DNA of 64,000 nucleotides, from NCBI RefSeq assembly GCF_026210795.1, contig NC_089441.1:2852001-2916000 (forward strand), written 5' to 3'. The translations under genes were made by a program, and so were the position numbers. Source of the stretch: Rhizophagus irregularis. Lineage: Eukaryota; Glomeromycota; Glomeromycetes; Glomerales; Glomeraceae. Below the pieces are notes generated by a model. The model was not told where the DNA came from, did not search any database, and worked only from the letters and a program-made list of their open reading frames with translations. Shown in pieces: positions 39,550-49,246 of this stretch (positions within the stretch are counted from its first letter, which is position 1; each line of letters opens with the position of its first letter).

Positions 39550-42500
39550 ATGGGTTTTCTTGAAACGGAAGAGCGAGAATCACTCGAAATAAAGTCACCT
39601 CGTTATGAAGTCGACACCTCACAAAACGAACAACATCAAGGAGATAGAACTCCTTCTCCAGCATCATCGGAGAATTCAGCACTTTTAAATAATAATTTTC
39701 CAAGTAATATTCAAACTTTGACAAACTCTTTTATAAGATATTCTTCTACCCCGCGGAAACTTAGTGCTTCATTATCAATGCGAAATGCTTCAGCTTCACT
39801 TTCATTTTCTTACTCCATGATAATTATAGGAGTATTAACAATTATTTTGGTTGGGATGATTATGGATTCATTTTTTAACCGTCAAAAAGACTCCAAAGGG
39901 TGTCATGTTTCGAGAATGTACCCTTGGTTCATCAAACATGATAACTTTGATAGTGAACAATCAAAATTTGCCGGAAAGTATGGCTTGTATCTATACAGAG
40001 ATAGAGTATACGATTCTAATGATCAGGTACGAAATCGTTGTTAAAAAATTAGACAATTTAAAATGAATAAAAATTTATCTAAATCTTTTTCAACAAAAAG
40101 CCAACCGGCATTCCAGCCCTTTTTATTCCAGGCAATGCTGGTAGCTATAAACAAGTTCGTTCAATAGCTTCAGAGACATCAAAAATTTTCTCCGAAATTG
40201 TTTCGAGAGATCAGAGATCATTAGAGATGGGAGTTAGAGCACTTGATTTTTTTACAGGTAAAGAATCTGATTTTATCGCATTGATTTATACTTTTATTTA
40301 TTCAAGATAGTTTTTTATTCTTTGACATCACATCCATAGTTGATTTTAATGAAGAATTTTCTGCACTTCATGGACATTCTCTGAATGAGCAGGCGGAATA
40401 TCTTAATGACGCTATTCGATATATTTTATCATTGTATCCGTCAACACGAAAAATTCTGAATACTAATTCACCGCATCCGGATCCGACTTCTGTTATTATA
40501 GTCGGACATTCAATGGGTGGTGTAGTTGCTAGAACTTTATTTACGATGCCAAATTATCAACCTGGATCCATAAACACCATTTTGACATTTGCAACACCAC
40601 ATGTTTTACCTCCTGCCCCATTTGATTGGCAAATAAGTAAGATTTACACCGATATTAATGAGTTCTGGAGAAATGGATATTCTCAGAGTGCAACTTCCGA
40701 AAATTCTTTGGCGGAAGTTACTTTGATATCTATCGCCGGTGGGAATTTGGATACTGTCGTATGTTCAGATTCTGCAAATATAAACTCAATCGTTCCTGCA
40801 TCTCATGGCTTCACTGTTTTTACTACATCTATTCCTAATGTATGGACTTCTATGGATCACCAAGCCATTCTATGGTGCGAGCAATTAGTCAAGGTTGTAG
40901 CGACCTCTTTATTGAGTATTGTTGATATTAGGCGCTCCGGGCAAACGAAACCAAGCGCAGAAAGGATGGCGGCATTTCGAAAATTTTATTTAACTGGACT
41001 TGAAGATCCAATTGATTTAGGATTGAATAAGTCAAAAAGAGGTAATTAAATTAAAAGTTTCTTTTTAGAAAGTAATATTTTTTCTTAATATACATGAATT
41101 TAAATTTGTTTATCAATTAGAATTTTTTGGAATAGTAAATTTGGAGAAGGTGCCCCACAAATTTTTAAACATGGGCCAGAGAATAGTTTTAAATCATTTA
41201 AATCTAACAACACAAGTATATTTAATGCCAATACCACCACCAGAACCACTTTCAACATTTTCTTTATTGACGGATCAATACTTGTCAAAAAATCCTGGAA
41301 TAGAAATTCTTTTATGTGATGTTATGCCAACAGAAGTTCCCGATCAGCAAAATAAAAAAGATCTATCTTTAAACATAGATTTACCCACAGCACCAAGACT
41401 TTCTTGCCACATAGCATCTAATGAAGCATCTTTATTGCCAGCTTCAAGAAGAGATTTGAAACATCCATTTTCTGGTTTAACCTTCAATTATTTAAAATTA
41501 AATGTCAGTGATCTGGGAGATTATCAATATATTGCTATTATGTTTTATAATAAAGTTTCTATGGAAGGATTCTTAATTGGAGAATTCTTTGATGAAAGAT
41601 TAACGATTATGGAATTAAATAACTCGTCTATGAAAGGTTGTAGATCTTTTCTTTTCTTTTTTTTTGTTTTTTTTTGTTTTTTTTTTTTTTGAAAAAAAAA
41701 ATAATAATTTATGAAGTAAAAACACATTATTTTTGACCGTTCAGATCTTATAATTGATGGCATTCATATTGATGAATTTCCTGAACATCAAACCATGGTA
41801 TCTTATTTGCATATTCCAATTATTGATAGTAGTTTAATGACATATAAAATGTCAGTTCGACGTGTGGGATGTGTAGGTAAACTAACGTTTTCAATAATCT
41901 TTAGGTAATGTAGTGGTTTATTTATTAATTATGTTAATTTATATGGTTATTGTTTTTTAGAACATTTTGCAACATTTGCACGTCAATCTATTTCGTCCAT
42001 GTACGAATCTAAATTTCTGGTCAACGTCGATAATGCGGATTTGAATATTCATGGACAGTCTCCTTTTGTGACACCTGTTAGTGCGCCTAATTTTCGTAGA
42101 GGACTTGAATTACAATTTTGGATGGATCCTACGTGTTCAATTCCATTATCAATTGATATTGAATGGGATTTTTATGGAAGTCTTGGTAAAATAATTATGC
42201 GATTTCAAACTGTTCTCGTTGCTTTTCCTTTCATAATTGTGATTATGACTTTAAGGACACAATTTAGAGAGTACGATCATGGTGGCAAGTTATTTAATTA
42301 TAATTATTACTGTTATTATTTAAGATATTCTCTTTTTTGTTTACTTTATTTTTCATTTTTTGTAGAGACCTTTATAAGCTTCGGGCATGGGTTAGCACTT
42401 TTCATTCGACAAACATTCTTGAAATTTATTATTTTTGTGTCAGCATTGTCTATTTACCAATCAGTTACTCGAGCTTCAAAAACATATTCATTAGCAGATT

Positions 42501-43848: not shown

Positions 43849-45364
43849 TCAAACGTAACTACAGAAAGTACTTGGAGAATTCTTATGTTTTTTTGAAGAT
43901 ATATCGTCATTATTGCTATCTACATATTTTCTTTTAGTTCGTTCAAAATGGACTTCTTCATCATCCAAAGTATCACTTCGGTAATTTTCTCTTTCCTTAT
44001 AATTTCCTTTCATTATAATAGCAATGTCTTCTTCATTAAGACTAATGGCCCCATCTGAATCATGTCGTGGTGCTAAATAAAAAATTATTTTATATTTTAT
44101 GTTAAGATAAATCGACAGAAAATTACGATAACTTACATTCAGGAGAACCAGGACTCCATTCATTTGATTCAATCTTAACTTTTGTACATCATGTGATTTA
44201 GTATATATCATAATGTAAAATATGATTAGGTGTAAGAAAAATACACAAACCACATAAATCATTGTTTCTATGGTTTCTCTGTGAAAAATTCCATCCTTAT
44301 TAAAATTAATGAATGAAACCGCGTTAAAACGCGAAAAAAATAAAATTATAACAAGATTAATATTAACATTAATCACCTGGAATATCACTCATGAGTTTAT
44401 ATTGATGCAGCGGAACAGTTCGAATATCAACCGAATTACTATAAAACGTATATCTAAAACCCTGTATGATATTTGTGTTAGAACCCTTTAAATTTCAATT
44501 TTTTTAAAAAATATTCTTTCTAAAAAAAAAAAAAAATATTCACGTTCCAACCAGGATGGTCAATATGCTTCGGTGTCTCTTTAACTTCCATTTCTTCGCA
44601 AATATATTTTATCTGTAAAGAATGTTCTTCTAAATCGGTTATATTTTTAGTGTAAGTGAAATTTTTTATTGTTAAAAAACACTCGTGTTTGTTTTTTGAA
44701 GAATCGATTTCGTGAGAAAATGTATAATCTCTTATAATGATAAGCGTCCCCACCATATAATCAATACTATGTCTATAATTATCCGACGCGTCGTAATAAT
44801 AATAAAAAAAAATCTTTTAGTATAGTGAATTTAGTGAATTTCACCGCAGTAATCAATTTCAGGTAATAAAATTTTTAAGGTTAAAATTCTCGTGTTTTTT
44901 ATTAAAGATTAAAAATTCTTTCTTAATTTAGATATAAAATATATAAAATCATGATTTTAATTATGAATTTATAATAGGATCTTAATAAGAAAATTATTTC
45001 TATAATAACTTAAATATTGGATTGTTATAAATTATAAAGTTAAACAAACCTGTTGAATTCATAAAGACTTTCGTCAGTAAAAAAACATTTTATATAATAT
45101 TGATTATCATGAATTTCTGCCGACATAAGCTCATTTGGTTCTAATTCTTCATAATTTATAAACTAGAATATGCAAAAAAAAAGTTTGAATTCAACATATT
45201 CAGTATTGTCAGATATACATGCACCTTTAGGAAAATAAAAAACTTACTCGTATAACTTGTGCTCTAATTGCTCTAACGGGTGTTTTTTGATATTTTTCCT
45301 TATCAAATAGATAACTTAATACTTCCTTCTTTATCCAAGGTCTTGCAAAGAAATCTCGAAACAT
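43849..45364 (-). CDS. Candidate shelterin subunit TPP1/Tpz1 (OB fold)
   Basis: Seven exons: 45364-45248, 45162-45050, 44772-44544, 44461-44377, 44295-44251, 44178-44137, 44072-43849; 855 nt, 284 residues, GT-AG at every intron with frame kept at all six joins. The N terminus MFRDFFARPWIKKEVLSYLF carries the RPWI motif typical of TPP1 and fission yeast Tpz1. It is followed in family order by VRAIRAQVIRF, MSAEIHDNQYYIKCFFTDES, DYMVGTLIIIRDYTFSHEI and ECFLTIKNFTYTKN, the strands expected of the telomerase-recruiting OB fold. The C-terminal half is acidic/basic and low in hydrophobics (DDEEVHFERTKRKYVDS), with a KRK/KKHK nuclear-signal-like stretch. TPP1 bridges telomeric proteins and recruits telomerase. 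Assignment rests on motif order, not a database match. Confidence 0.65.
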
Positions 45365-45576: not shown

Positions 45577-45591
45577 TAACCCTAACCCTAC
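45577..45591 (-). promoter_or_regulatory. Double telomere-type motif upstream of the TPP1-like gene
   Basis: The plus strand reads TAACCCTAACCCTAC, i.e. GTAGGGTTAGGGTTA on the strand of the TPP1-like gene, about 213 bp before its start codon. Two telomere-type repeats in a row can bind Myb/telobox proteins (Teb1/Tbf1/TRF-like). Function here is inference, and it could be chance or a scar of repair. Confidence 0.4.
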
Positions 45592-46221: not shown

Positions 46222-48556
46222 TTACATTGATAATTTTTTACTAATTCTATTACCTTTTCGCTTTCTTTTTGTAGTTGGTCCTATCATACTTCCATAATTC
46301 CCAACAGAAAATTCGTTCATTATTTCAAAGTTCCTTTTCTTTATATTCTTTTGATCATCATATGAATTCTTTTTTTCTTTATTAAAAATCTTTTCCTTTT
46401 TATGATCATTCTTGTTATCTAACTTCTTGGAGGAAACAAGATTGTTATTAACATTTGATGGCGCTTCTCGTAGACCAAAACTTTTTGCTATGTGACCCAA
46501 ATGTAATTTTTTTACATGAAAAATATGTTTTTCTGTGGATACGTGCGTTGCATATGCACGAATATGTGATGAATACGCCTTTTGGGCTAATGTGGTGCGC
46601 TTTAAATAATAAACAATCCCTTTAGTTGAAAACAACATTATAATTAAGTTTATGGAAAATTTGATTTACCTTTGAATTTGAAAGAACATATCTTTCAAAA
46701 TTTAATTGAATATCTGTCGCTACGACTTCATATTCATTTTTGTTCCTCTTATTTTGAGTTGCCAAACTTTTTAATAAAGTTTCGACTCGAACAGGCTCGG
46801 CAAAAATTTCTTGTGACTTTAAAACATTAATATACTCAATTTCACTTGGTAATATGAACAATATAGCTTCACCTTCTTTACCTAACCTTGCAGTTCTACC
46901 AACTCTGTGAACATAATCTTTTAAATCTGTTGGCGGATCATATTGAATAATCTCTGCGACGTCAGGAAGATCAAGACCTCTTGCAGCAACATCCGTACAA
47001 AATAATATTCCAGAATTTGAACGACTAAATTCATTAAATATTTCTGTACGAACATTTTGTGTAAGGTCACCATGTAATCGAAATATTTTCGCAGGGATAA
47101 TAGTAGAAATTGATTGATCATTATTCTTTAGTTTATCATCATCAGAATTTTCATCATCTAATTCGTTAATTTTTCCAGCATTCATAAATAAATCAAAATG
47201 AAAATCTACAGAATCACAACATGATACAAATACTATAATTTTACGATTCATTAAATTTCTAATTTGTTTGAAAGTTGATTTAAGGATTGCTGTTAAAGTA
47301 ACTAAACGTAATTTTGCTGGCGTTATAATATATGATTGTTTTAATTGATTTGGTGTGTTAAACTTTGCATTTTTCTCACTTTTTTCTTCTATAAAGGAAA
47401 AATCGTCATTTCCTCCAATAAAAATTGGATTAAATAAAGTATATCCGGCTAAACGTTTAACATCATCTTTTAAAGTAGCAGAACAAAGAATAATTTGTCT
47501 TCTTTTTGGCCAAAATTTAGAAGATGAGAAAATTTGATTTTTTGTTTCCGAGTTAATAGTCTTTTCATCTAAAATTTTTATAATTGATTGAAGAGTTTCT
47601 TCAAATCCTAACTCTAAAAGACGATCAGCTTCATCAAGTATGAGCCAACATAAATTTTTTACCAGAAAAGATTTAGTATTTTGTAAATGATCCAATAATC
47701 TACCAGGAGTACAAACTAAAATATTTATTCCTTTACGTAATCTAGCTTTTTCAGATTGCTTTTTTTCGCCCCCAATAACATTGCCAATAACAATCCAATG
47801 ATTTAAATGACGAGAAGTAAATTTTGAAGGTGGAATATTAATTAAATATTTCAATACTGATACAACCTGAATTGCTAATTCACGTGTTGGGGTTAATATA
47901 ATTGCTAAAGTTCCAATTGAACGTGAAAGCAATCCATTATTTTGTATATCAATTGTAATATTTATTAATCGATGCACAATTGGAAGTAAATAAGTTAATG
48001 TTTTTCCAGATCCTGTCTCAGATTGAACAATAACATCAAATTCTACGTTTTTGTTGATAGAAGACATTAATATAGGAATTGCTTTGCTTTGAATATTTGT
48101 TGGTTTCTCAACTCCTAATTTATTTTTCATGTTTTCAACTAAATCATTATCTAAGCCCATACTTTTAAATGATGAAGTATCATCAATTGGTGCATTACTT
48201 GGTTTATGATCCATTTGTTTTGAATTATTATCATATCTAACATTTGGTATTTCAGGGTTATAGCTAAAAATAGAAGAAATAATTTGTGATTTATTTATTA
48301 AATTCTTTTGAGAATTTAAATTATTTTCTTGAATTGAATTATTGTTATTTACTGCTATTGTTGTTGTTGACTTTTGAAAAAATTTATGTTTATCGGTTGA
48401 ATTATTCTGAATCTCTTTTTTTAAAAATTTTCGAAATTTTTTTTTTTCCTTCCAACCTCCTCCAATGTTCTTTAATTTTGATCTCAAACTAGCTCTTTCA
48501 TTATCAGAAGAATTTTCTGTAACTAAATTTAATATTAGATTATTTGACCCATCCAT
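46222..48556 (-). CDS. DBP7: DEAD-box ATP-dependent RNA helicase DBP7 (DDX31)
   Basis: Nucleolar helicase needed for 60S ribosomal subunit assembly. The start is taken as [12 protein letters not shown] at 48556; the upstream in-frame extension is hydrophobic/lysine-rich and unlike the family. Motifs in order: Q-motif region ([14 protein letters not shown]...[11 protein letters not shown]), [69 protein letters not shown] and [11 protein letters not shown] 70-nt intron (46669-46600) joins VLSNSK to [19 protein letters not shown], the DBP7-specific C-terminal region with [16 protein letters not shown]. The end is Lys/Arg-rich ([12 protein letters not shown]). The start is 144 bp from the divergent OHCU decarboxylase start. 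Confidence 0.95.
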
Positions 48557-48700
48557 AATTTTTAATAAACCAGAAATTTTTTTTTTTTTTAATATCAAAA
48601 ATCTGATTATGCAGTGACTTTTGAAAGATCTGCATGCAATATGCATGTATGGATATTATAACACTAAAAAAAAAAAAAAAAAAAATATTTTGACAGCGAA

Positions 48701-49246
48701 ATGTCAAATTTAATACCAATTTCTGAGTTAAATGAACTATCATACGAAGAATTTATTAATAAAATCAATATATTATTTGAAACAGCTTTACCATTAGCAA
48801 ATGCATTATATTCTTCTCGCCCATTCGCATCTTATACTTCTTTAATTTCTTCAGCGACAGAATTTATTCAAAATCCTGAATTACCATTTTCACAAAAACT
48901 TGAAATAATTAATGCACATCCACGCTTAGGTGAAAATAAAAAAAATCTTTCTTCATTATCTTTAAAGGAACAAGGTTATTCAACAAATAATGATTTAAGT
49001 CAAAATGAATCAAATACCGTAAATGAAGATGAAATTGTTAATACAATACTACAGGAATTAAATTATAAATACGAAGAAAAGTTTGGTTTTCGGTTTGTTA
49101 TTTTTGTTAATGGTAGATCAAGAAAAGAAATCATTCCTATATTACAAGATAAATTAGAGAATGGAAATCGAGATGATGAATTAAAAAGAGGTTTATTAGA
49201 TATGATGAATATTGCCAATGATAGATTAAGACGTTGCCAGAATTAG
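48701..49246 (+). CDS. OHCU decarboxylase (ureide pathway)
   Basis: 2-oxo-4-hydroxy-4-carboxy-5-ureidoimidazoline decarboxylase, the last step from urate to (S)-allantoin. Intronless, 181 residues, starts MSNLIPISELNELSYEEF. Family landmarks: FIQNPELPFSQKLEIINAHP with RLG (catalytic His region AHPRLG), LKEQGY, LNYKYEEKFGFRFVIFVNGR and SRKEIIPILQDKL, ending RLRRCQN. No C-terminal peroxisome signal of SKL type is seen. It shares a 144-bp upstream region, including a run of about 20 A, with DBP7. Confidence 0.93.
   Translation: MSNLIPISELNELSYEEFINKINILFETALPLANALYSSRPFASYTSLISSATEFIQNPELPFSQKLEIINAHPRLGENKKNLSSLSLKEQGYSTNNDLSQNESNTVNEDEIVNTILQELNYKYEEKFGFRFVIFVNGRSRKEIIPILQDKLENGNRDDELKRGLLDMMNIANDRLRRCQN

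Follow-up and report, generated by a model that had tools for sequence, protein, structure and literature searches.

The window analysed here is a stretch of 64,000 nucleotides from the genome of Rhizophagus irregularis, a mycorrhizal plant symbiont of the early-branching Glomeromycota. On its minus strand, from 45364 to 43849, seven exons join into a reading frame of 284 residues plus a stop codon, and all six introns start with GT and end with AG. The first-pass annotation had joined seven exons without a frame break into the same number of residues, and the sequence blocks that it quoted (RPWI, YYIKC, VGTLIIIRDY and FLTIKNF) are present in our re-derived translation. The gene and its surroundings contain the following features, in window positions.

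45578 to 45590, plus strand: AACCCTAACCCTA, telomere-like motif of two units, 214 bases before the ATG of the candidate TPP1 gene
45248 to 45364, minus strand: exon 1, residues 1-39, with the ATG start and RPWI at residue 8
45050 to 45162, minus strand: exon 2, residues 40-76 plus part of residue 77, with YYIKCFFTDES (YYIKC at residue 61)
44544 to 44772, minus strand: exon 3, remainder of residue 77 to residue 153, with VGTLIIIRDY and FLTIKNF
44377 to 44461, minus strand: exon 4, with RTVPLHQ as residues 167-173
44251 to 44295, minus strand: exon 5
44137 to 44178, minus strand: exon 6, which encodes, jointly with the final base of exon 5, VKIESNEWSPGSPE; this comprises a psi-K-x-E site (K198) and, after it, W-S
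43849 to 44072, minus strand: exon 7 and stop codon, encoding an acidic, lysine-rich tail
44640 to 45343, minus strand: span of the predicted TPP1 OB domain with introns included, residues 8-121 in exons 1 to 3, delimited by PF10341 and the alignment with the human OB domain
40285 to 41046, plus strand: PGAP1-like piece (244.5 bits)
46622 to 48655, minus strand: DEAD-box helicase (135.6 bits)
48668 to 49243, plus strand: OHCU decarboxylase (129.2 bits)

The neighbours of the gene are ordinary housekeeping genes. The telomere-like motif AACCCTAACCCTA occurs once in the window and in none of 100 dinucleotide-preserving shuffles. Among the 15 genome loci examined, it was present only in the three that overlap 45578-45590. 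It is possibly a promoter element, a TRF-type site.

An alternative model of 292 residues, in which exon 4 starts at an acceptor at 44485 (24 bases upstream of 44461, adding 8 residues), was replaced by the 284-residue model. About 16 bases upstream of the acceptor at 44461 lies TTCTAAC, which we take to be branch-point-like, and a duplicate of this region on contig C9 (see below) has TTCTAAT and TTCTAAC at the corresponding places of its two exon-4 acceptors. For this reason, the acceptor at 44461 was preferred. The choice does not affect the OB domain.

A Pfam scan of the 284-residue protein matched residues 8-121 to positions 2-130 of the 158 positions of PF10341 (TPP1/ACD) with 45.0 bits (E 1.3e-11), compared with a cut-off of 26.5 bits. 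TPP1 was the only family reported at E values up to 10. The proposal of the first-pass annotation that this is a TPP1/Tpz1 candidate is therefore backed by a curated model that gives the spliced protein this name, and no competing OB-fold family was reported. Its expectation that simple similarity searches would miss such a gene proved too pessimistic, since an ordinary Pfam scan with the spliced sequence detects it. None of nine control sequences derived from residues 1-125, eight of them shuffled and one reversed, matched TPP1, and two of the nine produced sub-cut-off matches to other families, the best with E 0.076.

As the exons had been picked by eye, the PF10341 scoring was repeated exon by exon. 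Exon 2 alone scored 14.8 bits (model positions 55-83), compared with 17.3 bits for exon 3 by itself (positions 92-130); exon 1 alone was not reported against TPP1. Joining exon 1 to exon 2 raised the score of the latter from 14.8 to 29.0 bits, the pairs 2+3 and 1+3 reached 33.6 and 22.5 bits, and the three exons together gave 48.0 bits, the best of the combinations, with the pieces collinear with the model.

The protein was also compared directly with the OB domain of human TPP1, using a sequence that is letter-for-letter identical to part of PDB 2i46. In Smith-Waterman alignments with residues 1-125, the score was 61 with BLOSUM45 (shuffle mean 30.7, sd 4.8) and 45 with BLOSUM62 (shuffle mean 23.2, sd 3.5), corresponding to Z values of 6.3 and 6.2, and none of 2000 shuffles scored as high with either matrix. 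The alignment covers most of the domain. Like human TPP1 (ACD), the window protein starts its domain with RPWI and matches the same Pfam family at the same model positions (2-130); unlike it, it reaches only about half the bit score (45-48 versus 84.8 bits for the human OB domain). A phmmer search of the PDB with the OB part (E up to 10) gave three matches, the best with E 0.12 and none to a TPP1 chain.

In this alignment with the human domain, the two proteins appear to differ further in the TEL-patch: a four-residue gap falls in the acidic loop of human TPP1, and the window protein keeps few of the acidic residues of this loop. Tpz1 itself uses other residues at the TEL-patch, T73 to R81, according to an excerpt of PMC4936895.

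A search of the whole raw genome with PF10341 missed the gene in the window, which we attribute to the weakness of its single exons. The sole match of that search (C11:2996617-2996853, 29.3 bits) exceeds the cut-off, but has 4 stops inside and was taken as a chance match; by eye, its flanks encode a transposase-like protein in another frame.

This chance match also bears on the possibility that the window protein belongs to a different OB-fold group (STN1-, TEN1- or RPA2-like) or lacks an OB fold altogether, in which case its TPP1 match would be fortuitous and helped by the choice of exons by eye. OB folds are short and mutually alike, PF10341 demonstrably exceeds its cut-off at a site with stops, and exon 1 weakly resembles Rv2175c_C below the cut-off (E 0.03 to 0.22). 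Against such a coincidence stand the 45-48 bits that accumulate collinearly across three exons, the lack of matches between the complete protein and any other Pfam family (E up to 10), the nine controls free of TPP1 matches, and the human alignment that outscored all 2000 shuffles, so that we regard it as very improbable. Sequence evidence shows that the N-terminal domain, roughly residues 8-121, belongs to the TPP1/ACD OB-fold family, and the gene very probably encodes the TPP1/Tpz1 orthologue of R. irregularis.

Roughly 160 residues follow the OB domain, and a scan of the C-terminal 157 residues gave no Pfam match. In fission yeast, residues 185-212 of Tpz1 bind Pot1; this binding is lost when L193, C198, I200 or P201 is changed to arginine and becomes weaker with Q204R (PMC9333443, excerpt). 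The exon-4 element RTVPLHQ fits the I/V-P-x-x-Q pattern of the Pot1-interacting motif described there, with Arg167 at the place of the important Cys198. The human POT1-binding segment contains YTVP. The pattern [VI]P..Q, selected post hoc, occurred in 1.6% of 20000 shuffled versions of residues 126-284. Aligned with its human counterpart, the putative POT1-binding segment scored at chance: with BLOSUM45, its score was reached by 1126 of 2000 shuffles, and with BLOSUM62 by 1040 of 2000. A PDB search with the segment gave four matches and no TPP1 or Tpz1 chain; the best, tachylectin-2 (E 0.0027), shows a GWN-F-FF repeat likeness, which we read as resemblance to a short lectin repeat and set aside.

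Further downstream, exon 6 contains VKIESNEWSPGS, which we liken to the psi-K-x-D/E site around K242 of Tpz1 and the SWSSS motif beside it, both of which act through Stn1-Ten1 (excerpts of PMC4197044 and PMC6686008). The window protein has a second psi-K-x-E site, IKKE at residue 11. Some psi-K-x-D/E was found in 42% of 20000 sequences obtained by shuffling residues 126-284; with the added condition of W-S/T no more than six residues after the site, again a pattern selected post hoc, the share fell to 1.1%. Both C-terminal patterns were selected after inspection of the sequence and hence serve as leads only.

The order of OB domain, putative I/V-P-x-x-Q element and putative psi-K-x-E site with neighbouring W-S corresponds to the order of features described for fission-yeast Tpz1. 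Unlike Tpz1, the window protein is shorter, has Arg for Cys198 of the Pot1 motif, and has no Ccq1- or Poz1-binding C-terminus recognisable by eye. It is also shorter than human TPP1 (284 residues versus 458 in PDB 7qxa chain O), whose POT1-binding segment cannot be aligned with it above chance. Est3 of budding yeasts is little more than an OB domain, unlike the window protein with its long extension. TEBP-beta of ciliates, the partner of a POT1-like subunit, is considered to correspond to TPP1 (PMC9333443, excerpt), but forms a separate Pfam family, PF07404, which the human OB domain reaches only at E 0.27. With the window protein, no match to PF07404 was reported at E values up to 10, in searches where HMMER filters remove the majority of matches with E greater than about 0.1.

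Since a similarity between Est3 and TPP1 has been described (PMC8305976, excerpt), the window protein might instead be Est3-like. It would then belong to the same broad OB family but serve as a subunit associated with telomerase that does not bind POT1, and its C-terminal extension would be unrelated to Tpz1. The failure of the POT1-binding likeness to reach significance in pairwise alignment is in keeping with this idea. However, a POT1 gene is present in the genome (see below), the Pfam family matched is named TPP1/ACD, and the protein continues for about 160 residues beyond the OB domain, whereas Est3 has little else. We consider the Est3-like interpretation unlikely, and continue to treat the gene as a TPP1/Tpz1 orthologue.

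Partners of TPP1 were sought in the whole genome (147 Mb, 32 contigs), and the first-pass suggestion to look for POT1 and TERT was productive for both. The POT1PC domain (PF16686) was found on contig C8 (C8:2082806, 67.8 bits), together with POT1 (PF02765; C8:2082256, 26.3 bits, or 32.2 with neighbours). The C-terminal piece of this locus that was scanned had no Pfam match and so does not confirm a TPP1-binding domain in POT1. RAP1 is represented by a single ORF on C27 (Myb_Rap1 51.6 bits, Rap1_C 24.8 bits). The TRF family is represented by a 324-residue ORF on C3 (C3:5688956; 1240-2214 of locus L010, minus strand; 31.8 bits), within which no Myb domain was reported; a further exon may hold one.

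The RNA-binding domain of TERT gave 7 matches on five contigs, with loci at C27:2747597, C5:3223505, C17:1738979, C15:2175533 and C9:4939358. Most have internal stops, which may be introns or decay. The loci on C27 and C5 are 98.7% identical over 2678 bases, and those on C15 and C9 are about 83% and about 70-73% identical to the C27 locus, respectively. In the C27 copy, a reverse-transcriptase piece remained below the Pfam cut-off. Genome searches for Stn1 (PF10451) and TIN2 (PF14973) had no matches, but neither had their controls, so that nothing follows about the absence of these proteins.

Telomeric repeats were abundant: a five-unit TTAGGG pattern had 1558 forward and 973 reverse matches, compared with 0 for the reversed control. 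Among the matches listed, one array starts at base 4 of contig C2. This agrees with an excerpt of PMC10234402, in which the R. irregularis DAOM197198 assembly is described as having 32 scaffolds at chromosome level that end in TTAGGG repeats.

In animals and fission yeast, TPP1 contributes to the protection and extension of chromosome ends, where it connects the single-stranded terminus with telomerase. By analogy with fission yeast and mammals, the R. irregularis protein most likely bridges POT1 on the overhang to telomerase via its OB fold. The segment after the OB domain (about residues 148-180) would dock on POT1 and thereby keep TPP1 on the single-stranded overhang of TTAGGG repeats. Its OB fold would contact TERT, such that telomerase is recruited and stimulated. 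More speculatively, K198 could be sumoylated and, together with the adjacent W-S element, attract Stn1-Ten1, which would terminate extension as it does in fission yeast; a switch to Stn1-Ten1 through the exon-6 element is possible on this analogy.

The first-pass annotation had held that a member of the family at this locus would show TPP1 to be old in fungi. The family match was indeed found, but it carries less weight than claimed: fission-yeast Tpz1 is already described as a homologue of human TPP1 (PMC9333443, excerpt), and the antiquity of TPP1 in fungi was therefore already likely. With the sequence match reported here, TPP1 seems to have belonged to fungal telomeres from early on. Together with POT1, RAP1, a TRF-like gene and TTAGGG ends, it would place an animal-like set before the split of Glomeromycota and Dikarya, and fission yeast would have kept rather than invented this set. 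The finding leaves the view of TPP1 action unchanged and provides a testable POT1 partner in an early-branching fungus. In the excerpted part of a 2021 survey of Glomeromycota for duplex telomere binders, TPP1 is named only in reference titles (PMC7952879). Among the matches listed from the open-access literature (titles and starts of abstracts), none describes a TPP1 of Glomeromycota or Mucoromycota; one may be published elsewhere, and Pfam or UniProt may already carry the window protein.

Part of the gene is duplicated. On the plus strand of C9 (C9:3622776-3623385) lie two copies in tandem, each with the last part of exon 3 and with exon 4, introns included. A wider C-terminal query of the genome found no copies besides those in the window and on C9. 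In the 3.5 kb around the duplicate there was no significant match to the OB part, the best separate match having E 0.024 (residues 101-133).

The existence of this partial duplicate, and the fact that the gene was read from DNA alone, could be taken to mean that the window holds a decayed or unexpressed TPP1 copy and that the working gene lies elsewhere. We consider this extremely improbable, given that the frame stays open through seven exons with GT...AG introns and that a genome search with the spliced 292-residue model found no second copy of the OB exons, though a gap could hide one.

Read with the same splice sites, the C9 duplicate encodes 126 residues, open to the stop, with no Pfam match above the cut-off. 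For the exon-4 copies dN/dS was 0.35 to 0.43, over only 21 to 28 codons, too short to judge selection on the C9 copy. With gap columns dropped, the window gene and copy 1 differed at 16 of 85 positions in exon 4 and 8 of 75 in intron 4 (p 0.19), and the gene and copy 2 at 13 of 69 and 4 of 81 positions, respectively (p 0.009). Pooled, with the window gene counted twice, the differences amounted to 29/154 in exon 4 versus 12/156 in intron 4 (p 0.004). Since exon 4 has diverged more than intron 4, we lean towards a decaying fragment. There is a slim chance that the duplicate is instead a working, OB-less gene of 126 residues with the putative POT1-binding segment present twice, in other words a TPP1-derived decoy competing for POT1. 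If so, in a genome that also has several TERT-like copies, this would be a remodelled telomere-control module peculiar to R. irregularis.
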